From a virus: a stretch of DNA of 36,226 nucleotides. Shown here piece after piece: positions 1,465 to 27,278 of the stretch. Location of the stretch: positions 1-36,226 of the IMG/VR virus record IMGVR_UViG_3300045911_000532. One strand, 5' to 3'. Position 1 is the first letter of the stretch, and every line of letters starts with the position of its first letter. The position numbers were made by a program, and so were the translations under genes. Below the pieces are notes generated by a model. The model saw only the letters and a list, made by a program, of their open reading frames with translations, did no database searches and had not been told where the DNA came from.

Positions 1465-3894
1465 GTGCCGGCTTGGGTTGACCAGATCCGGCGGTTGCTC
1501 CGGATCCAAGAGGCTCCGGTTCAGCGACCGCGGGTCGTCCAGATCGGTCGAGCAGGGGAAACCAAGTACAGCGGTTCTTCTGTTTCGCGATCGGGGAACC
1601 GGCGCGGGGGACTGCTCCGTCGTTTCGACACTTATTCGCTAGCGCAGTATCAGGAAGTGCGCAACTATCCGGTCGTGGTGGACGCGATCAAGATGCTGGC
1701 GATGCCGATTGTCCGCGCCAAGTTCCACTGGGCTTGTGCTGATCCGCGGGGGGTTGCGCTGGCTCAGCGGTACATCGAGCCTCTGTTGCCGCGCCTCATG
1801 GAGGATTTGGTTATGGGGGGCTTCCAGTTCGGGTTTCAGGTGTGCGAGGTGGTTTGGGCGCCTGCGCTGAATGTGGAGATCTATCCGGAGGACGGGGAGC
1901 CGTTCTGGATGCCTGCTGTGTGGGCTCCTTCGACGATGATCCCGTACGCGCCGGAAGAGGTTCAGCTGATGGCAGACCAGCGAAGCGGCAAGTTGACCGG
2001 AGCGCGGCTGCTCATTCCGTCGGTCGGAAAATGGGGGGAACAGTTTTTGCCGATCGACAAGATGCTCATCTGGACTCACGATCCGGAGTTCGGGAGCTAC
2101 TACGGGGTTCCGCGCACCCGTCCGATCGTTCCGTTCGTTGAGCGGGCGAACGAGATTTGGGATGATCTCGGGCGCTATTACCGGCGGATCGGGATTCCGT
2201 GGACGATCGGCTGGTTCAAGAGCGGTTTCACCGACTACGGGCCGGATGGCGAATTTCCTCCGACCGACAACGCCAACGAGATGATCAATTTGATCGAGGG
2301 TTTGCAGAGCGGCCATTCGCTGGTGTTGCCGAGCGACCAGCACCGCGACGGGGGCGGCCGGCAGTGGGACATCGAGACCCGCGGGGAGCCTGCGTTCGCC
2401 ACGAACTTCACCGAGCAAATCGCGTTCGTTCACGACGTGATTCGCACGGGTCTATGCGTTCCGAAGCTGGCGAGCTCCAGCGAGGCGGAGGGCGGAACCT
2501 ACAATCTCGGTCAAGCACAGATCGCGCAGCATAACGAGAACATCATGGCGACGCTTTCGGCGATCGAGGCGGCGATCAACCAGCAGCTGATGAAGCCGTT
2601 TTCGCGTTACAATCTCGGGCCGAAGGCTCCTTCTATCCGGCTGGTGTTCGAGCCGGTTTCGACGGACGTTCAGCTGGTGCTCCTTCAGGGTCTGATCTCG
2701 ATGCTTTCTCAGGGTGTCGAGATCACCGACCGCGAGGGCAACGCGATGGTTGCTGACTGGGCGAAGATCGCCGAGGACAACGGTTTGCCGGTATTGAAGA
2801 AGGATCAACGGGCTGAGCTGCTCGATCTGTTCCGGCGTCAGGTGGCAGAGCGGGAGACGATGAACGAGGTCGAAAGCCCTCCTGCTGTTGAGCTTGCCGA
2901 GTGGCGGGAAGAGGATCATCCTCGGGACCAGGGCGGCAAGTTCGCAAAGAAGGATGAAGAGTCTGAGGGAGGAGGAGCGGATTCTGATCAACCCGTGGTG
3001 CCCAAGAACAAAAACCTAAAGACTCCGGACAAAACCGCTTCAGATCCCAACGACGCATTCGAGTCCAGCACCGCGGATGAGGTCAAGGACAGGTTCGGGG
3101 TCAGGATTCCGGTTGCTGAGCCTTATGACGTGCAGATCAACACCAACCCCAACGCCAAGATGGTCGCGCGCTACAAATACAACGTTGGGGGCAAGGAAAA
3201 GTCAGGAATCGTTTATGACGCCAAGTGGCTGAGCGAGCAACAGGTCGCTAAATTCGAGCGAGTGCAGTACCAGAACGAATATTCCTACGAAATCAAGAGT
3301 GCGCTGGAGGCATATGCGCATGACAACGACGAGGCAAAGTGCTGCCTGCTCATGCACACGACCGGCATCCGGATCGGTTCCGACGCGAATGCGGGCGAGA
3401 AGCACACCGGCAAGACCGCAACCTTCGGAGCCAGCTCGTTGCGAACCGAGCATATTCACGTCGAGGAGAACGGCGACGTGCGGCTGAAATTCACGGGTAA
3501 GAAAGGCGTCGAGCAGGACGTTTTGGTAAATCATCCGACGCTGGCTAAATGGTTAGCTGAGAGGTCAACCGAGGGTCCGGGCAAAATTTTTGACACCAAC
3601 GAAGTGGCGGTCCGAAAATTTGCACAAGATAAAATCGGACTTGGGAAAGCGCATGATTTCCGGACCATGCTGGCCCATCGGCTGGCGCAAGATACGATCG
3701 ATTCTATGGGGCCTCCACAAACGGCAAAAGAGTTCACGCAAATGCGAAAGCAAATTGGCGAGGCAGTAGCCGCTCAGCTGGGGAACAATCCGTCTGAATC
3801 GTTGAAGAGTTATATCCCGCCTGTAGTGTTCGCAGATTGGGCAGAAAAGGTAAACTTGAACGATGAGCAACGACAAAAAATCAACCTCATTTAA
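1465..3894 (+). CDS. Portal protein fused to a type IB DNA topoisomerase domain
   Basis: This 809-residue protein starts with GTG after GGAGGG at 1449-1454. Residues about 1-470 match the Mu gp29-like portal family (RRFDTYSLAQYQEVRNYPVV, then HDPEFGSYYGVPRTRP), which forms the dodecameric ring through which DNA enters the head. Residues about 480-492 hold the EEDHPRDQGGKF linker common where phage structural proteins carry extra C-terminal domains. Residues about 540-800 are a topoisomerase IB catalytic domain: R636 in TTGIRIG, K679 in LKFTGKKG, R733 in HDFRT, N774 in LGNNP and nucleophile Y783 in LKSYIPP. The N-to-Y spacing is 9, as in bacterial and poxviral enzymes. The domain should therefore nick and reseal DNA. 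Base composition is visibly less GC-rich in the last few hundred bases than in the portal part, suggesting acquisition by transfer. Confidence is high for both domains; their joint role is unknown. Confidence 0.88.
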   Translation: MPAWVDQIRRLLRIQEAPVQRPRVVQIGRAGETKYSGSSVSRSGNRRGGLLRRFDTYSLAQYQEVRNYPVVVDAIKMLAMPIVRAKFHWACADPRGVALAQRYIEPLLPRLMEDLVMGGFQFGFQVCEVVWAPALNVEIYPEDGEPFWMPAVWAPSTMIPYAPEEVQLMADQRSGKLTGARLLIPSVGKWGEQFLPIDKMLIWTHDPEFGSYYGVPRTRPIVPFVERANEIWDDLGRYYRRIGIPWTIGWFKSGFTDYGPDGEFPPTDNANEMINLIEGLQSGHSLVLPSDQHRDGGGRQWDIETRGEPAFATNFTEQIAFVHDVIRTGLCVPKLASSSEAEGGTYNLGQAQIAQHNENIMATLSAIEAAINQQLMKPFSRYNLGPKAPSIRLVFEPVSTDVQLVLLQGLISMLSQGVEITDREGNAMVADWAKIAEDNGLPVLKKDQRAELLDLFRRQVAERETMNEVESPPAVELAEWREEDHPRDQGGKFAKKDEESEGGGADSDQPVVPKNKNLKTPDKTASDPNDAFESSTADEVKDRFGVRIPVAEPYDVQINTNPNAKMVARYKYNVGGKEKSGIVYDAKWLSEQQVAKFERVQYQNEYSYEIKSALEAYAHDNDEAKCCLLMHTTGIRIGSDANAGEKHTGKTATFGASSLRTEHIHVEENGDVRLKFTGKKGVEQDVLVNHPTLAKWLAERSTEGPGKIFDTNEVAVRKFAQDKIGLGKAHDFRTMLAHRLAQDTIDSMGPPQTAKEFTQMRKQIGEAVAAQLGNNPSESLKSYIPPVVFADWAEKVNLNDEQRQKINLI

Positions 3895-4111
3895 GTTCGA
3901 AGACACGGTTCTTGGAGGCGCGGGTGTGCCGCGGGTCGAACGGCGCGATCCGCGCTGGGATGTTGATGCGCCTGGAATGGACGAGTACAACGCGAAAATG
4001 TTGGCGCAGGCCCGTCGCGCCGTTGAGGCAGTGCAACTCGCTGGGAGTCAAAAATTTGATCCCTCTACTATGGCCGAGTGGGACGAATCCGAAGAAGACG
4101 ACGACGAATAA
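3863..4111 (+). CDS. Small acidic protein overlapping the portal-topoisomerase gene
   Basis: I do not recognise this 82-residue protein. It begins 32 bases before the end of the fusion gene in another frame and ends in a strongly acidic tail (EWDESEEDDDE). The middle holds a possible amphipathic helix (MDEYNAKMLAQARRAVEAVQ). An A/G-rich AAAAGG lies about 12 bases upstream of the ATG. Its base composition resembles that of the topoisomerase end rather than of the head genes, so the two may have arrived together. The acidic tail and tight coupling suggest a partner, inhibitor or DNA-mimic regulator of the topoisomerase domain, but that is inference only. Confidence 0.6.
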   Translation: MSNDKKSTSFKFEDTVLGGAGVPRVERRDPRWDVDAPGMDEYNAKMLAQARRAVEAVQLAGSQKFDPSTMAEWDESEEDDDE

Positions 4112-4127: not shown

Positions 4128-4586
4128 ATGAAGCAGCCGAAGCAAAAACTGGTCATTGAGGCGTGTGAGGCAGGGGGGCCGCTCCTGGTCTTGACCACGC
4201 CCCGAGAACGGCACCTGATAAGCGAGATGGCGGACGGGCCCGCCAAAGATCTCCAGCTGAAGCTCCTGGAGCGCGAAGACGAGCTCCGCGAGAAGATCAA
4301 GCTGAAGCGCTACGAGTTCGAGATGCGATGCGCGACCTATTCGGAGGACTGCGCAGCCAAGAACGCCGCCATGTACAACGACGAGCGGGGCGACTACAGC
4401 CGGATTTACAACCCCGTCCTGTACGCGCAGCACCTAGCCGCGGTGTGCACCGGCAAGAGCGTCGAGGAGATCGGTGAGTTGCCTCCGATGGTTGCGCAGA
4501 AGCTCATGGACGAGGTGATGGCGATTAACTACCCGAGCCACTACGACTACGACCATTTTTTTACGCAGCTCACTCGCTCGGGGTAG
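4128..4586 (+). CDS. Hypothetical head-region protein
   Basis: This 152-residue protein is unrecognised. It has a central charged helix (residues about 38-65, KDLQLKLLEREDELREKIKL), and its C-terminal part contains aromatic clusters (YPSHYDYDHFF). It lies between the portal and MuF-like genes in the same operon, so a role in head assembly or in protecting the portal is possible. The start ATG has no strong ribosome binding site. Confidence 0.65.
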   Translation: MKQPKQKLVIEACEAGGPLLVLTTPRERHLISEMADGPAKDLQLKLLEREDELREKIKLKRYEFEMRCATYSEDCAAKNAAMYNDERGDYSRIYNPVLYAQHLAAVCTGKSVEEIGELPPMVAQKLMDEVMAINYPSHYDYDHFFTQLTRSG

Positions 4587-4594
4587 GGGACGAG

Positions 4595-4759
4595 GTGAAC
4601 AACACGCACCCGATCATCGAGCGGTTCTGGCTGCGGATCGAGGGGCTCCTGACGACGAACATCGACGATCTGCCAAGCTATGAGGCACGGGCGGTAATCG
4701 GCATGTGGCGGGAATACCTCGGCGGCTTGAAGCAACGCCCCGAGCGAGAGACAGAATGA
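4595..4759 (+). CDS. Small hypothetical protein, GTG start
   Basis: This short gene of 54 residues starts with GTG after AGGGGA at 4585-4590 and overlaps the next start as ATGA. The product is mostly helical and polar (IIERFWLRIEGLLTT, then YEARAVIGMWREYLGGLK). It fills what would otherwise be a gap of about 170 bases between two tightly packed genes, which is the main support for it. The function is unknown. Confidence 0.6.
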   Translation: MNNTHPIIERFWLRIEGLLTTNIDDLPSYEARAVIGMWREYLGGLKQRPERETE

Positions 4760-5724
4760 ACCAGTTTCAGCGCGTAAACGCAGGGCTCCAGACGTACGGC
4801 CAGATCGAGCGGACAACCGCGAAGGATTTGCAGCAGATTGCGCGCCAGTACGCGGAGCGACCGGACCCCAAGCTGGAGCAGCAGTTTCTAAACCGGCTCA
4901 AGACCGCGCAGGTTCAGACGTACCAGAACGCGAACGAGATCGCGAGGCGGAAGACGCCGCTCACCGATCGCGAGCTGACGATGCTGGAGGCGCGGTTCGA
5001 CCACCAACGCGAATTTGCGACGAAGTTCTTTGACGACATGCGCAACGGGCGCGGAACGATGAACTACGAGACGAGGGCCGGCATGTATGCCGAGTCGCTC
5101 TGGGGTTTGCATAACCGCGGGCTCCTGGGCGATTTCCACGAGCCGAAGCACGAGCGCTACGACTGGATTCTCGACCCGTTCGTCGAGCATTGTGACGATT
5201 GCATCGAGCGCGCCCGACAGTCCAGGCGCGAGGGCGGAATATCGTATGACGAGCTGGTGGTTATCGGCTTTCCCGGGGACGGCATGACGCGTTGCGGGAG
5301 CCGGTGCCGGTGCCGGATTCAGGGCCGGAAGCGGCGGCGCAACCCGGACGGCAGTTTGCCGAAGTCGGCTCCTGCTCCAGAGTCATTCGAGGTTGGCGGG
5401 GTCAGGATCCACAGGGAGATGCCGGCTGCGGGGTTGCCGTTCGTGGAGGTCGAGCCTTCCGCGATCGGGAGGAGTCTGGAGCTACTGCCAGCTGACGATG
5501 CGGGGTTGTTGCTGGAGCATTTGCCTGCTCTCCCCCAGATTCTGGCAAAACCGGCTGCGGTGTTCGACGATCCTCAGGTATGGGGGCGTCAGTACTACGT
5601 TGATCCGCGGGCGGTCGCTGTTCTGGATCGCGACTCCGAGAGCGGGATCTGGAAGCTCGCGCACTTCCTGCTGGCGAAGTACCTGAACCTGCCTGAATTT
5701 GCGGTAAACGCATTGACGCCCTAG
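4756..5724 (+). CDS. MuF-like minor head (head morphogenesis) protein
   Basis: The 322-residue product carries the MuF-type C-terminal signature: HCDDC (C146, C149) followed by GMTRCGSRCRCR (C180, C184, C186), a probable metal-binding cluster. Members sit at the portal vertex, are needed for head assembly and may be injected with the DNA. Residues 1-100 are helical. After about residue 195 comes an extra domain of about 125 residues, starting with an SPPS-type linker and including VGGVRIHREMP; I do not recognise it. The ATG at 4756 overlaps the preceding stop (ATGA) and is preferred over an in-frame ATG 51 bases upstream that lies inside the preceding gene. Portal then MuF then protease is the Mu-like order. 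Confidence 0.75.
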   Translation: MNQFQRVNAGLQTYGQIERTTAKDLQQIARQYAERPDPKLEQQFLNRLKTAQVQTYQNANEIARRKTPLTDRELTMLEARFDHQREFATKFFDDMRNGRGTMNYETRAGMYAESLWGLHNRGLLGDFHEPKHERYDWILDPFVEHCDDCIERARQSRREGGISYDELVVIGFPGDGMTRCGSRCRCRIQGRKRRRNPDGSLPKSAPAPESFEVGGVRIHREMPAAGLPFVEVEPSAIGRSLELLPADDAGLLLEHLPALPQILAKPAAVFDDPQVWGRQYYVDPRAVAVLDRDSESGIWKLAHFLLAKYLNLPEFAVNALTP

Positions 5725-5740
5725 AAACTAAACAGTCTGC

Positions 5741-6772
5741 GTGAGCAGATTTCATGTGATCTCGTTGGCGGAGGACAGCGGCGGCGGGAGTGCGCCGTTT
5801 CGGGCGCAGGCGCTCAGGGTAGGGAAATGGGACTACCCCGGGCTCGACGGCGGCCTGGTCGTTACTCCCGAGCTTCTCACCGAATTCAAGACCAGCTTCG
5901 ACTTGCACGCGAAGGGGCCGGAAGTTCCTCTCAATCTGGAGCACGACGACGCGAAGCCGTGCGGCTGGGTGCGGGGGCTTGAGCTATCGGACGACGGTCA
6001 GACGCTGTACGCGCTGTTCGACGTGACCGAGCCGGATGTTCGGGAGAAAGTCAAAAACGGCACTTACCGCTACGTTTCCTCCGAGCTGGATCTAAGCTGG
6101 AACGACCCTGAGGGCCATTTCCGCGGGCGTCCGGTTTTTGACGGTCTCGCGCTGACCACGCGGCCTTACATCAAGCGGATGGAGCCGGTTCAGACGATCG
6201 ATTTAACGGAGGGCGTTACGTTTGAGGCTTCCGCAGAAAAAGAAGAGGATGTGGAACGCACAGCGACCCTATCAGAAATGGAGGTCAGGCTCAGCGAGAT
6301 GCAGGCGAAGCTTGCGGCTAAAGACCGTGAGCTAGCCAAGTATCGATCTCGCTCGCGCCTGACAGAAGTGAAGGCAAGGCTGAGCGAGCTTGCTACGAAA
6401 CGCAGGGGCGCAGTGCCTCTTCGGGTTTCGACGCACGTTACCCGACTGGCGGAGATTCTGCTGAGTCAAGGTAAGGAGCGAATCAAGCTCGAAGAGCCCA
6501 TGATCATCGAGGAGGGCACGGATACTCCGGTCGCCGAGCTCGATGTCATTGACGAAATGTTGGAGCTGATCGAATCGGTCGTCGAGGCCGTCGGCGGTGG
6601 TGGAGACGGAGCCCCGGAGAGCGTGCAGCTCGACGGTCATCCTTCTGAGGCACCGACTGGCGATCTCGAAGACGACCTGCTGCGAGAGGCTCAGGTGATC
6701 ATGTCCGAGAAGCGGGCCGGCTCTCTCAAAGAGGCTTTGCTCGTTGCGGTAGGAGGTCGAAATGGCCGGTAA
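5741..6772 (+). CDS. Mu gpI-like prohead protease and scaffold
   Basis: This 343-residue protein resembles the phage I-like family. An N-terminal protease part (about residues 1-160) contains VPLNLEHDDAKPCGWVRGLE, TYRYVSSEL and FDGLALTTRPYIKRM. A coiled-coil segment follows (about 175-210, LSEMEVRLSEMQAKLAAKDREL), then an acidic helical C-terminus typical of scaffolds. The enzyme is expected to process itself, the scaffold and possibly the portal inside the prohead. It starts with GTG at 5741 without a clear Shine-Dalgarno site. The stop lies 11 bases inside the next gene. Confidence 0.8.
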   Translation: MSRFHVISLAEDSGGGSAPFRAQALRVGKWDYPGLDGGLVVTPELLTEFKTSFDLHAKGPEVPLNLEHDDAKPCGWVRGLELSDDGQTLYALFDVTEPDVREKVKNGTYRYVSSELDLSWNDPEGHFRGRPVFDGLALTTRPYIKRMEPVQTIDLTEGVTFEASAEKEEDVERTATLSEMEVRLSEMQAKLAAKDRELAKYRSRSRLTEVKARLSELATKRRGAVPLRVSTHVTRLAEILLSQGKERIKLEEPMIIEEGTDTPVAELDVIDEMLELIESVVEAVGGGGDGAPESVQLDGHPSEAPTGDLEDDLLREAQVIMSEKRAGSLKEALLVAVGGRNGR

Positions 6773-7326: not shown

Positions 7327-8250
7327 ATGACTCAAGCAACCCAAAGAACGTTCTTCTCGAAGCCGCTGACCAATGTGGCGATCGAGTACACGCCGCCTGA
7401 TCTGGTGGCAACCAGGATTCTTCCGCGGTTCCCCGTCGAGCAGGATGTTGGCATGTACAACAAGTTCGACAAGAAGCTGTTCGACGTTCGAGACGATGCT
7501 CGGGCGCCGGGGGACGAGGCGAACGAGATTCAGCGCGGCTGGATTCAGGAGCCGTACCAGACTCATGGTCACGCGCTGGTGGAGAAGATCCCGGTCGAGG
7601 TCAAGAAGGCTGCCGATCCGATGTGGCGCGACCGCATGGACGCGACCGAGTATGTGAAGCAGCTGGTCTGGAACCAGTACGAGCTCGCGGTTCTCGGAAC
7701 CGGCGGTATTTTGAGGACTGCTGCGAACAACATCTACGCCAACGACGAGAACTGGAGCAATCTGGCGACTGCCGACGTTCGGGCGTCGTTCAACCTCGCG
7801 ATCGAGGCGATCGAGGTTGCCTCGGGTGTGAGCCCGAACACTGTGGTGATGACTCCGCGCGTTGCCCGGCACATCATGAGCACCGCGCAGTACCGCGAGG
7901 AGTTCAAGTACGTGGTTGACATCCGCAACGAGGGCGCCGCTGGCGATCTGCCGAGCGAGTTCTACGGACTCAAGGCGATCTACGCCCGTTCGCTGTTCAA
8001 CTCTGCCCGGCGCGGTTCGGCGACATCGCTGTCCCGCATCATGGGCGACGACGTTTGGATCGGCTATGTCAATCCGAGCGGAGTCGGATATAAGAACCTG
8101 ACCTACGGTGCGACGTTCGAGTTCTTCGAAGAGGCTGCGTCCTGGTACGAAGATCGCCGGAAGAGCTGGATGGTCCAGTACGACTGGAATTACACTCCGG
8201 TTGTCGTGGCCAAAGAGTGCGGGGCATTGCTCCAGAGCGTTCTTTCCTAA
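7327..8250 (+). CDS. Major capsid protein
   Basis: The 307-residue product is the best candidate for the HK97-fold shell protein. It follows the protease and decoration genes and has the usual length. It contains N-arm and P-domain patterns of this class (IEYTPPDLVATRILPRFPVE near the start; SGVSPNTVVMTPRVARHIM near residue 175) and a capsid-like C-terminal segment (RRKSWMVQYDWNYTPVVV). Its codon use is strongly biased to GC-ending codons, as expected for a highly expressed structural gene. A GC-rich hairpin follows directly. Confidence 0.85.
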   Translation: MTQATQRTFFSKPLTNVAIEYTPPDLVATRILPRFPVEQDVGMYNKFDKKLFDVRDDARAPGDEANEIQRGWIQEPYQTHGHALVEKIPVEVKKAADPMWRDRMDATEYVKQLVWNQYELAVLGTGGILRTAANNIYANDENWSNLATADVRASFNLAIEAIEVASGVSPNTVVMTPRVARHIMSTAQYREEFKYVVDIRNEGAAGDLPSEFYGLKAIYARSLFNSARRGSATSLSRIMGDDVWIGYVNPSGVGYKNLTYGATFEFFEEAASWYEDRRKSWMVQYDWNYTPVVVAKECGALLQSVLS

Positions 8251-17123: not shown

Positions 17124-17472
17124 TCAGTTATTCGGGTTTTCCGAATATGTGGGGAGCCCCGCCCGGCTGTGATTCAGCCATTGTAATTTTCTTCGTCCTG
17201 CTTCACACCGTTGATCCAGTACTCTTTGCAGCCATCCGGCCACTCTATAGCGGGGCCGTCATCTCGATGCCGCTTGCCGTTTTGGTACCACTCTTTGTCG
17301 CCACTCGCACCCTCAAAAGCTGGGCCGTCGTCCCTGTGCCGCTTGCCATTCTTGTACCAGCGTTTGTTGCCCCAGTCGTCGATAATCGGGTTCGTTGTTT
17401 CAGTCGTGTTGGTCATTGTTGTTTTCAGTTGTTCGGAAAATTCGAATAGGCGGGGCGGAGCCGGAGCCCTGC
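17124..17472 (-). repeat. Duplicated leader (TCAGTT-TTCGG hairpin plus GC-rich stem) before two small genes
   Basis: Upstream of the genes at 17116 and 17416 (minus strand) lie two related spacers, at about 17124-17162 and 17425-17472. On the plus strand both read TCAGTTRTTCGG, then a short A/T loop, then (T/C)CGAAT, then a GGGG...CCCC stem. The first forms ATTCGG-GTTTT-CCGAAT at 17130-17146. The second forms TTCG-GAAAATT-CGAA at 17432-17446. They may be terminator plus regulatory leader units, or traces of cassette exchange. Confidence 0.6.
17174..17416 (-). CDS. HRDDGPA-repeat protein (MORN/YwqK-like)
   Basis: This 80-residue protein contains two and a partial third copy of a repeat of about 22 residues with the core KRWYKNGKRHRDDGPA / KEWYQNGKRHRDDGPA, then KEYWINGVKQ. 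This is the MORN-variant repeat found in many phage and giant-virus proteins and in YwqK-type antitoxins. The role here is unknown; it may be a small beta-sheet binding protein. It lies in the leftward small-gene cassette. The repeats are also visible at DNA level near 17250-17360. Confidence 0.7.
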   Translation of the reverse strand: MTNTTETTNPIIDDWGNKRWYKNGKRHRDDGPAFEGASGDKEWYQNGKRHRDDGPAIEWPDGCKEYWINGVKQDEENYNG

Positions 17473-23167: not shown

Positions 23168-23630
23168 TCCGCAAGAAGCCACGGCGATAAGCCGCAAGGC
23201 GCGGCAGCGCACTCAGGTGCAGATCGCCGAACTGGATTCTCAGGTTGCTGCGCTCCACATCGAAGAGGGGTTGACCCAAACGCAGGTCGCCTCCCGGCTG
23301 GGCGTCTCCGTCGATGCAGTCAAACAATCGGTGGGCCGAATCCGCGCTCAAGTGCTGGAGCCCGTCCGGCAGTCGGTCGCGGTGACCATTGAGTCCACTG
23401 TTGCCGATTTGCAGAGCCTGCTCGAAGTCGCGCGCGAACCCGCGATGGAGGGGGTGCCGGTCTACATGAAGCTGATGCTCGAAATTATCCAGGAGCGCAG
23501 CAAACTGCTGGGTCTCTACCCCAAAGAGAGCGTGGATCAGGGCGCGATCGTGCAGCTGATCGTTGCGCTCAAAGACGGATGCACCCTCCCCAACCCGGGG
23601 GCGGAAGACGATGATCAGGATTCCGCCTGA
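23136..23630 (+). CDS. terS: Terminase small subunit-like protein
   Basis: This 164-residue protein has a helix-turn-helix (EEGLTQTQVASRLGVSVDAVKQSVGRIR, residues about 43-70, shown in two parts: EEGLTQTQVASRLGVSV and DAVKQSVGRIR), then a helical oligomerisation-like region and an acidic end. It directly precedes the large subunit, so it should recognise the packaging site and load the motor. It starts with TTG at 23136, 10 bases after AGGAG at 23121-23125, and overlaps the gpG-like gene by 32 bases. The symbol reflects the usual role, not a specific homologue. Confidence 0.65.
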   Translation: MSKRLPQGVADPQEATAISRKARQRTQVQIAELDSQVAALHIEEGLTQTQVASRLGVSVDAVKQSVGRIRAQVLEPVRQSVAVTIESTVADLQSLLEVAREPAMEGVPVYMKLMLEIIQERSKLLGLYPKESVDQGAIVQLIVALKDGCTLPNPGAEDDDQDSA

Positions 23631-24903
23631 AAAACAAAGAGCCCTGTTTAACGCGGTCGGGTACCAGCCCCACCCGCGCCAGCAGATCATCCACGATTCA
23701 GACGCACGCTGGCGCGTCGTGTGCAACGGCCGGCGATTCGGGAAAACGTATCTCGCCGCCGCCGAAGCGCTGTCGGTCGCGCTAGTTGGAGGCCGGGCGA
23801 TGATTGTCGGCCCGACGCACCTCACCTCAACGATCGCATTCAATCAGGTTTCCGACTTCGTCTTTGCCTCCGATGCGATCCGCTCTTTGGTGACCAAACA
23901 AAATCACGGTCAAGGGGCGAAGCTGCTCCGGTTCGCGACCGGCGGCGAGATTTTGACCCGATCGTCCGAAAGTCCCGATTCCATGCTCGGGCTGGGCTAC
24001 GACCTGATTGTGTTCGATGAGTGCGCAGAAGAGCCGGACGGCGGCACGATTTACCAGAAATTCATCCGCCCCGCGCTCTCAGACCGGCATGGCCGGGGGC
24101 TATTCATCAGCACGCCCGGCTACGATGACTGGTTCCGCGATTTCTGGGAGCGCGAGAACCTCGGGTTTTCGGGCTGGAAATCGTTCCAGATGCCGAGCGG
24201 GCCGCCGACGGTCTCGACCGAGGAGATCGAGGACGCCCGGCTCGAATTGCCTGAATCTATTTTTCGGCAGCAGTACCTCGCTGAATTCCTCGAATCCTCG
24301 GGCGCGGTCTTTTCTGGCATTGCCGATGCGGCGGTGCTTGAGCCCAAAGCCGGGCCGGAGGAAGGCGCCTACTACGTCATGGGGGTCGATATCGCTCAGG
24401 TGGACGACTGGACGGTGGCGGTGGTCATGGACGCTCGCAGCTGGCAGGTGGTCGCGATGGACCGGTTCCAGGGGATCCCATACCCCGAGCAGGAGGAGCG
24501 GCTGGCGCGAATGGCCAGGCACTGGAGGTGCCAGCACGTGCAGATCGACGCCACCAACAATCAGGCGATGGCCGAGCACCTGGACATGCGGCTCGGATTC
24601 TCAAACGTGATCGCCTTCAAATTCTCCAGCCAGTCGAAGTACCGCGTCGTCAACCAACTGGTGATGGCGTTTGAGCAGAAGAGCATCAAACTGCTGGCGC
24701 CTACCTCTTCCGCCATTGCCCAACAGACAATCGGCGAGCTCAGAGCCTATGCCCGCGAGAAGCTCCCGTCCGGCATGATTCGAACTTCCGCGCCGCCGGG
24801 CAAGCACGACGACTGCGTGATGGCGCTCTGTATGGCGCTCGATGCGACGATGACCTACGGGGCCGGTTCGCGCCCTCGAATCGGTCCGAGGATGGTGCGA
24901 TGA
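23611..24903 (+). CDS. terL: Terminase large subunit
   Basis: The 430-residue product is the packaging motor. The N-terminal ATPase has a Walker A variant GRRFGKT (40-46) and Walker B LIVFDE (132-137). The C-terminal RNase H-like nuclease has acidic residues in MGVDIAQVDDW (D260), HVQIDATNN (D313) and GKHDDCVMAL (D400/D401). It cuts and translocates concatemer DNA into the prohead. ATG at 23611 follows GGAAG and gives the natural N-terminus MIRIPPEKQR; an earlier in-frame start at 23563 lies inside the preceding gene. The next gene starts in an ATGA overlap. Confidence 0.92.
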   Translation: MIRIPPEKQRALFNAVGYQPHPRQQIIHDSDARWRVVCNGRRFGKTYLAAAEALSVALVGGRAMIVGPTHLTSTIAFNQVSDFVFASDAIRSLVTKQNHGQGAKLLRFATGGEILTRSSESPDSMLGLGYDLIVFDECAEEPDGGTIYQKFIRPALSDRHGRGLFISTPGYDDWFRDFWERENLGFSGWKSFQMPSGPPTVSTEEIEDARLELPESIFRQQYLAEFLESSGAVFSGIADAAVLEPKAGPEEGAYYVMGVDIAQVDDWTVAVVMDARSWQVVAMDRFQGIPYPEQEERLARMARHWRCQHVQIDATNNQAMAEHLDMRLGFSNVIAFKFSSQSKYRVVNQLVMAFEQKSIKLLAPTSSAIAQQTIGELRAYAREKLPSGMIRTSAPPGKHDDCVMALCMALDATMTYGAGSRPRIGPRMVR

Positions 24904-26056: not shown

Positions 26057-27103
26057 CTATTTTTCGGAGAGCATTTTGGACAACCGTTCCATGCCTGAAC
26101 GTCTGAGCTCTTCGGAGCTGGACGCGTAGATCAAACTCATATCCGGATTTGCATGACCGAGAATTGCGGCAACGGTGAGGAGGTCGCATCCGGCTGCAAC
26201 GAGGAGACCGGCTGCGGCATGACGCAAGTCGTGGAAAGCCCATTCCTGCATGCCAAGCTCTTTCGCCATCGTTCTCCATGCGTCGGTCAAGCGATTCGGA
26301 TGCCAGCGGTTTCCGACGTGGTTCGTACAAATGTAGACGCTATCGAGGTTGCCGCGCTGATCGATGCCGTCTACGATCTCCTGAGTCAGCGGGATGACTC
26401 TGGCAGAGCTTGCTGTTTTGAGTCGCTCTTCCCTGCGCGAATAGTCCGACACCTGCCGCTCGATTCGAAGAGTTTTTGCCCTCCGGTTCAAATCAATCCA
26501 CTTGAGACCGATGATTTCTCCGCGCCTAAGCCCGAGCATGACCGCCAGATAGACCGGCGCGGCCAGCGGAGTCTGGTCTGCAAATTCGATGAGGTCTAAA
26601 GCTTCCGACGGGCTCAGTACGCGGATACGCCTTCCCGGACCCTTTGCTCTCTGGGTGCTCAGAACAGGGTTCGAACTGATCAGCCCATCTTGTACCGCCA
26701 GAGCCAGGACAGAGCCCAGAAGGGAGCGCGAAAAGTTGACGGTATTGGCTGCCGGAGTTTTGCCGGCGATTTTCACTGACAGCAACCAGTTAAGCCAGGT
26801 CTGACATTTCGCGCGGGTGATCTGATCGAGAGGCAGAGCGCCGAGGGTCGGGCGGATGTGCAGGTTAAACGAGCCCTTGTAGCGGTGGATGGTGGACGGT
26901 TTGCACGAAATCTTGGTGGGCAGATAGACCTCATCAAAAAATCGTCCGAGGGTCAATTGAGTAGATTGAATAGTCAACCGTGGCGTCATCGCCAGCTTCA
27001 GGTCTTCGTCGGCTTCTTCGGGCGTGCGTCCGTATCCCCAGAACCGTTTCCCCCGCACCATTTTGGTGCTCATCCATCTGCCATCTTTCCTCAATGTTGC
27101 CAT
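26057..27103 (-). CDS. int: Tyrosine site-specific integrase
   Basis: The 348-residue product has an N-terminal arm-binding region (MATLRKDGRWMS, then RGKRFWGYGRTPEEADEDL), a SAM-like core-binding domain (TLGRFFDEVYLPTK) and a tyrosine-recombinase catalytic domain with R193 (LGLRRGE), K229 (LKTASSAR), HDLRH (H291, R294), LGH (H317) and nucleophile Y326. It integrates and excises the phage. I start at ATG 27103 because GGAG lies 9 bases upstream; a TTG six bases earlier lacks room for a binding site. It is the last gene of the leftward lysogeny operon, and its start lies inside the excisionase-like gene. Confidence 0.93.
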   Translation of the reverse strand: MATLRKDGRWMSTKMVRGKRFWGYGRTPEEADEDLKLAMTPRLTIQSTQLTLGRFFDEVYLPTKISCKPSTIHRYKGSFNLHIRPTLGALPLDQITRAKCQTWLNWLLSVKIAGKTPAANTVNFSRSLLGSVLALAVQDGLISSNPVLSTQRAKGPGRRIRVLSPSEALDLIEFADQTPLAAPVYLAVMLGLRRGEIIGLKWIDLNRRAKTLRIERQVSDYSRREERLKTASSARVIPLTQEIVDGIDQRGNLDSVYICTNHVGNRWHPNRLTDAWRTMAKELGMQEWAFHDLRHAAAGLLVAAGCDLLTVAAILGHANPDMSLIYASSSEELRRSGMERLSKMLSEK

Positions 27104-27278
27104 CTGCAATCACTCCAGTTTGCACCAATCGGTCCAGGTCGCTCACGCGGAAAACTCTTCCGAGTCCGGGCACCGGCTCGATGGTGCGGGATCTGACCAG
27201 CCGTCGCCAAATCCGTGCGGTCACGCCGATATAGGCGCGGGCTTGAGATTCGGGCAAGGCGACGGGCTGGATCTGCAT
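26934..27278 (-). CDS. Excisionase-like DNA-binding protein
   Basis: This 114-residue product has a winged-helix/MerR-like N-terminus (LPESQARAYIGVTARIWRRL, then VFRVSDLDRLVQTG) as in phage excisionases, which bend attP DNA and steer the integrase to excision. It starts 2 bases after the upstream stop. Its C-terminal about 55 residues overlap the start of int in another frame (170 bases), an unusually long overlap; that part is basic (RTHARRSRRRPEAGDD) and may be dispensable. Confidence 0.62.
   Translation of the reverse strand: MQIQPVALPESQARAYIGVTARIWRRLVRSRTIEPVPGLGRVFRVSDLDRLVQTGVIADGNIEERWQMDEHQNGAGETVLGIRTHARRSRRRPEAGDDATVDYSIYSIDPRTIF

Follow-up and report, generated by a model that had tools for sequence, protein, structure and literature searches.

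A single gene near the start of the virus record IMGVR_UViG_3300045911_000532, analysed here over its whole length of 36,226 nucleotides (the window), encodes a portal protein whose C-terminus carries a complete type IB topoisomerase (TopIB) domain. The frame, on the plus strand at 1465-3894, runs without interruption through the portal and TopIB parts. Such a fusion had been proposed from a sequence-only reading of the window, and it is confirmed by matches to both the Portal_Mu and Topoisom_I profiles and by a two-lobed predicted fold. The parts of the gene are listed below by window position, strand and amino acid (aa) number, with expectation values (E) and the predicted local distance difference test (pLDDT) where relevant; the relatives counted are those described further on.

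1465..3894, +, portal-TopIB fusion protein; 809 aa, GTG start, single open frame
1648..2733, +, Mu-type portal domain, aa 62-423; Portal_Mu PF06074, E 2.1e-20; phrog_113 portal
2872..3033, +, predicted disordered linker, aa 470-523; pLDDT <50 in the full-length model
2917..2943, +, motif HPRDQGGKF, aa 485-493; common to TopIB and other cargo fusions elsewhere
3058..3891, +, TopIB domain, N-terminal and catalytic lobes, aa 532-809; PF01028 at aa 591-779, E 2.1e-12; AlphaFold2; Foldseek/VIA
3370..3372, +, catalytic R636 (TGIRIGS); R in 81/82 relatives, the remaining one truncated
3499..3501, +, catalytic K679 (FTGKKGV); K in 82/82 relatives
3661..3663, +, catalytic R733 (HDFRTM); R in 82/82 relatives
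3784..3786, +, catalytic N774; N in 82/82 relatives
3811..3813, +, nucleophile Y783 (KSYI); Y in 82/82 relatives

A portal protein ending in a type IB topoisomerase

The N-terminal part is a Mu-type portal both by profile and by its surroundings. Its Portal_Mu match exceeds the curated Pfam cut-off, the PHROG portal match reaches 9e-21, and protease and major capsid genes lie downstream; identity to the portals of Gordonia and Rhodococcus phages is about 22%. The Pfam search of the protein returned no match to MuF, the N-terminal domain by which MuF polymorphic toxins are recognized.

The C-terminal part gives a significant TopIB match in the profile search that had been suggested as a check, scoring 47.4 bits with Topoisom_I (PF01028) against a curated cut-off of 23.7, and this is the sole such match in the record. 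A sequence search of solved structures finds the Deinococcus radiodurans TopIB 2f4q (E 4e-10), and plasmid-borne bacterial TopIBs share 26-28% identity over about 93% of the domain. For aa 493-809 AlphaFold, given 65 relatives, yields a model whose mean pLDDT is 90.3 and whose predicted template modelling score (pTM) is 0.86. When this model is used as a Foldseek query, the D. radiodurans TopIB (3m4a/2f4q) comes first with an E of 1.8e-12, followed by the human and variola enzymes. In the VIA comparison ranks 1-20 are all TopIBs (Z 15.6-19.6), aligned across both lobes (model residues 30-317). Xer and Cre recombinases fall below them, with a best Z of 13.9 and nearly all covering the catalytic half only, mostly from model residue 95. 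Because TopIBs head the fold list while recombinases rank lower and align over half the domain, the predicted two-lobed structure identifies a TopIB and not a stray integrase domain. An integrase mistaken for a TopIB was considered and rejected: Pfam finds only Portal_Mu and Topoisom_I in the protein, and the best fold matches are TopIBs. Prediction of the whole protein was only partly informative, with a confident TopIB and a disordered stretch at aa 470-523 but a poorly predicted portal part and hence no usable portal structure.

The five catalytic residues named in the sequence-only reading make up the R, K, R, H/N, Y pentad of type IB topoisomerases and all stand at the numbers given there, N774 and Y783 being nine residues apart. 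The search patterns with which relatives were gathered include the catalytic R and K but not R733, N774 or Y783, making the latter three the fair test of conservation. In nine TopIBs that were reached through the portal instead of the TopIB, all five residues are present in eight and the ninth ends at a contig edge. That the R-K-R-N-Y pentad is kept among domains about 30% identical overall points, as judged from sequence, to selection for activity. A histidine, H730, replaces the usual lysine, a substitution common among the relatives only to the window and contig L117. In one TopIB (L214) an insert of about 165 residues separates the regions of the catalytic R and K; its five catalytic residues are intact, and its carrier is a 1,596-aa portal that also bears InPase. 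The family phrog_23460, listed as of unknown function, probably consists of TopIBs, since its matches in the window (3235-3870), L075 and L076 fall in their TopIB regions. An in-frame ATG at window position 2860, with GGGAG just upstream and 19 codons before the HPRD linker, is a possible internal start for a free TopIB.

Carriers, linker and companion enzymes

Single-protein scans with the whole protein, the capsid protein or the window's TopIB domain confirmed no close relatives in viral contigs and found none in genome contigs. Terminase relatives had neither portal nor TopIB in common with the window, a weak absence since the portal profile matched in no control genome. The family was opened by aligning the window's TopIB with a Bacteroides phage enzyme, which led to L075 and L076, and these three sequences aligned together led to 83 viral contigs. 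The non-redundant set comprises 68 open reading frames (ORFs) below 85% identity, window included. A scan of genome contigs gave one TopIB fragment, with patterns strict enough that prophage copies may be missed. Carriers were assigned with local profiles seeded on Pfam-verified stretches and with Pfam on representatives, and 50 viral records were checked with Pfam profiles.

Portal-TopIB fusions account for 24 of the 68 ORFs, with carriers of the Portal_Mu (5), Phage_portal_3 (16) and Phage_portal_2 (3) families, and MuF-TopIB fusions for another four (L075, L083, L112 and L149). The module also occurs on DUF2213 proteins and as separate ORFs; a portal or MuF gene lies nearby on the same strand for 17 of the 40 non-fused TopIBs. 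In L159:2489-6726 a separate TopIB ORF starts exactly at the end of a Portal_Mu ORF, a split form of the window fusion, and in L149:3418-6519 an intein/HINT-like match separates two MuF pieces of the MuF-TopIB protein. A quick tree, many of whose forks are weak, places the window beside L117 (support 91), both with Mu-type portals, and separates the head-linked TopIBs from the enzymes of bacteria (four) and the stand-alone ones of phages (seven), with carrier types interleaved.

These carriers also settle whether a frameshift or an assembly error joined two separate genes, a concern that arises because the window represents only one virus record. The fusion occupies one open frame, and the same architecture recurs on independent viral contigs, including the closest tree neighbour L117, which shares H730. 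An artefact is therefore vanishingly improbable, and it was ruled out by Portal_Mu-TopIB fusions on L092, L101, L117 and L153 together with fusions to other portal families.

The linker is shared as well. The sequence-only reading had taken the HPRD motif for a joint between domains, and this is borne out both by the residues H485-PRDQGGK-F493 and by their recurrence: a strict HPR...G-F motif lies within 130 aa before the TopIB in 27 of 66 ORFs, compared with 0.03 expected by shuffling, and a looser form in 37 of 66, compared with 0.9. In the multi-cargo proteins L101, L134 and L138 the motif can precede successive domains.

Other enzymes occupy the same polypeptide as TopIB in several relatives, namely inorganic pyrophosphatase (InPase; L091, L106, L160), a Zeta toxin (L132), NUDIX (L096, L111, L146), ADP-ribosyltransferase (ART; L087, L135, L138) and an Acb1/2H-like domain (L162). 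These companions are known or proposed early effectors. With such enzymes in between, the TopIB often lies hundreds of residues past the portal, and about 1,100 aa past it in L101. In L075:694-6760 a portal-ART fusion is followed by a MuF-TopIB protein and then by an ART-PolyVal protein. Scanning with a single Phage_portal_3 portal collected 57 related portals, which at the same C-terminal position carry TopIB, InPase, ART, combinations of these or nothing; portals 69-72% identical differ in having TopIB. Structural head proteins whose fused enzymes differ from one close relative to the next, as in this Phage_portal_3 swap, are the pattern of head-borne effectors. Since portals about 70% identical bear TopIB, ART, InPase or nothing, TopIB is, on this comparative evidence, interchangeable cargo on head proteins rather than a swivel that belongs to a particular portal. 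In the Portal_Mu family the five TopIB fusions differ in spacing and co-cargo.

Around the fusion gene, the window encodes the following head and lysogeny genes.

4705..5724, +, minor head protein candidate; phrog_24776; its L076 homologue lies just upstream of the TopIB protein
5741..6772, +, Mu I-like prohead protease/scaffold; PF10123, E 4.7e-7; phrog_976
7327..8250, +, major capsid protein; phrog_1005, E 1.2e-44
26057..27109, -, tyrosine integrase of the phage, distinct from the TopIB domain; PF00589, E 1.7e-21

An S24-type repressor is also encoded, and because integrase and repressor are both present the phage looks temperate. A CHAP/endolysin-type gene (892-1461) lies directly upstream of the portal, and the large terminase (23563-24903) is 20 kb from it. 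Downstream of the fusion, where a MuF toxin would have its cognate immunity gene, Pfam matches neither of the two ORFs (3863-4111 and 4128-4586). A small minus-strand ORF (17174-17416) contains repeated WY.NGKRHRDDGPA units that appear MORN-like by eye.

Possible roles of a putatively particle-borne enzyme

The reading we favour, with a probability of roughly 60%, is that the portal C-terminus serves as a cargo slot holding a catalytically complete TopIB, which is carried in the particle and acts on DNA mainly in the newly infected cell. The slot would accept exchangeable enzymes, TopIB being attached by the flexible HPRDQGGKF linker. Assembled into the particle with the portal, the enzyme would be present in about a dozen copies if kept on every subunit, and would presumably sit in the head lumen beside the genome. 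Through Y783 it could nick, swivel and reseal DNA. Its main work would come after entry, when supercoiled host DNA or incoming phage DNA may be relaxed in an early take-over or as counter-defence, the domain perhaps having been freed by cleavage in the linker. That the enzyme travels in the head and acts on DNA upon entry is suggested by precedents: T4 stays active with a C-terminal portal fusion (gp20-GFP), and fusion proteins targeted to the capsid reach the inside of cells (PMC9026906); for portals fused to PBECR, 2H and InPase domains, a role as injected effectors has been proposed (PMC5512222). The sequence-only reading had itself listed sealing, nicking or attacking DNA after injection among possible functions, which fits the cargo proposal.

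Several points weigh against this proposal. That the enzyme enters the cell, and which DNA it acts on, are inferences. A portal-anchored domain would somehow have to leave the particle, and the cleavage in the linker that might free it is hypothetical. TopIB is no known toxin, and what a phage would gain by carrying it is a matter of speculation. The TopIB tree is short and many of its forks are weak. The lumenal position is taken from known portals, as the portal part of the full-length model is of poor quality, and the swap of cargo is seen in the Phage_portal_3 family, not in the Portal_Mu family of the window.

From the tethering of TopIB to a portal, adjoining DNA under load, it could be supposed that the enzyme is a swivel relieving twist or compression during packaging or ejection, as the sequence-only reading had suggested, and in T4 packaged DNA has been proposed to be under torsional compression (PMC10893049). 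This now seems unlikely, since the module is also found away from portals or at a distance from them: it occurs on MuF and DUF2213 proteins and as separate ORFs, and some 1,100 aa can separate it from the portal (L101), or InPase or a Zeta toxin can precede it. Portals about 70% identical have different cargo or none, and the T4 portal, according to a review, does not rotate (PMC10893049). About as improbable, if marginally less so, is action late in the infected cell before assembly, on replicating phage DNA, with the fusion merely securing co-expression from the head operon. The separate TopIB ORFs agree with this, as do the 17 of 40 non-fused copies near a same-strand portal or MuF gene, the abutting portal and TopIB ORFs of L159 and the stand-alone TopIBs of jumbo phages (PMC7824862), but recurrent virion-protein carriers, a common linker and exchange with ART and InPase would be left unexplained.

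The TopIB might instead serve end-joining or protection of the injected genome, by nick sealing, circularisation or resolution of recombination intermediates, and not global relaxation. Strand resealing lies within TopIB chemistry, and as cargo the domain would enter with the genome. There is no sign of site specificity, however, the phage has its own integrase, and recombinases match almost only the catalytic half of the domain. This alternative is the least probable of the three. The cargo proposal can also be extended beyond the window: many uncultivated phages may build TopIB into the particle through a portable HPR...G-F linker slot, deliver it with the genome and reset DNA topology in the first minutes, a generalization put forward tentatively and held at somewhat less than even odds. 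If true, phages would alter DNA topology from entry onward by a particle-borne enzyme, a new kind of virion cargo, and swappable enzymes behind one linker would offer a direct, sequence-only route to further virion-borne effectors.

Relation to known systems

Open-access literature searches found no portal-topoisomerase fusion, in agreement with the sequence-only reading, which knew of none described; the fusion is nonetheless not unique to this phage, given its 24 occurrences. When 50,697 annotated phage records were searched by tblastn with three different TopIB queries, no hit had an annotation placing a TopIB on a portal or MuF protein; LR745208, also hit, is unannotated. Portal- and MuF-borne effectors are known, and TopIB as their recurrent cargo appears to be new.

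A close parallel is provided by the portal- and MuF-fused early effectors and polyvalent proteins of Iyer et al. 2017 (PMC5512222), which share the C-terminal enzyme on a head-module protein, multiple disparate enzymes per polypeptide and the same gene neighbourhood. InPase, fused to portals in that work, adjoins TopIB in relatives here, whereas no topoisomerase fusion was found in its main text, and TopIB cargo and the HPR...G-F separator are not described there. The MuF polymorphic toxins of temperate phages (Jamet et al. 2017, PMC5576092) likewise place a variable C-terminal enzyme on a head protein, as do the four MuF-TopIB proteins; in contrast, the carrier in the window is a portal and TopIB is no established toxin. 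With the bacterial and poxvirus TopIBs (D. radiodurans 2f4q/3m4a, variola 2h7f) the window enzyme shares both lobes, and its R-K-R-N-Y pentad is as in the bacterial enzymes, but it is fused to a virion protein, and the tree groups head-linked phage TopIBs separately from its four bacterial members. Finally, TopIBs of jumbo phages are already known (PMC7824862), and stand-alone enzymes such as those of PaBG and of Bacteroides phage BS162P1 (top1E) are phage-encoded too, but they are unfused to head proteins and occupy separate branches of the tree.
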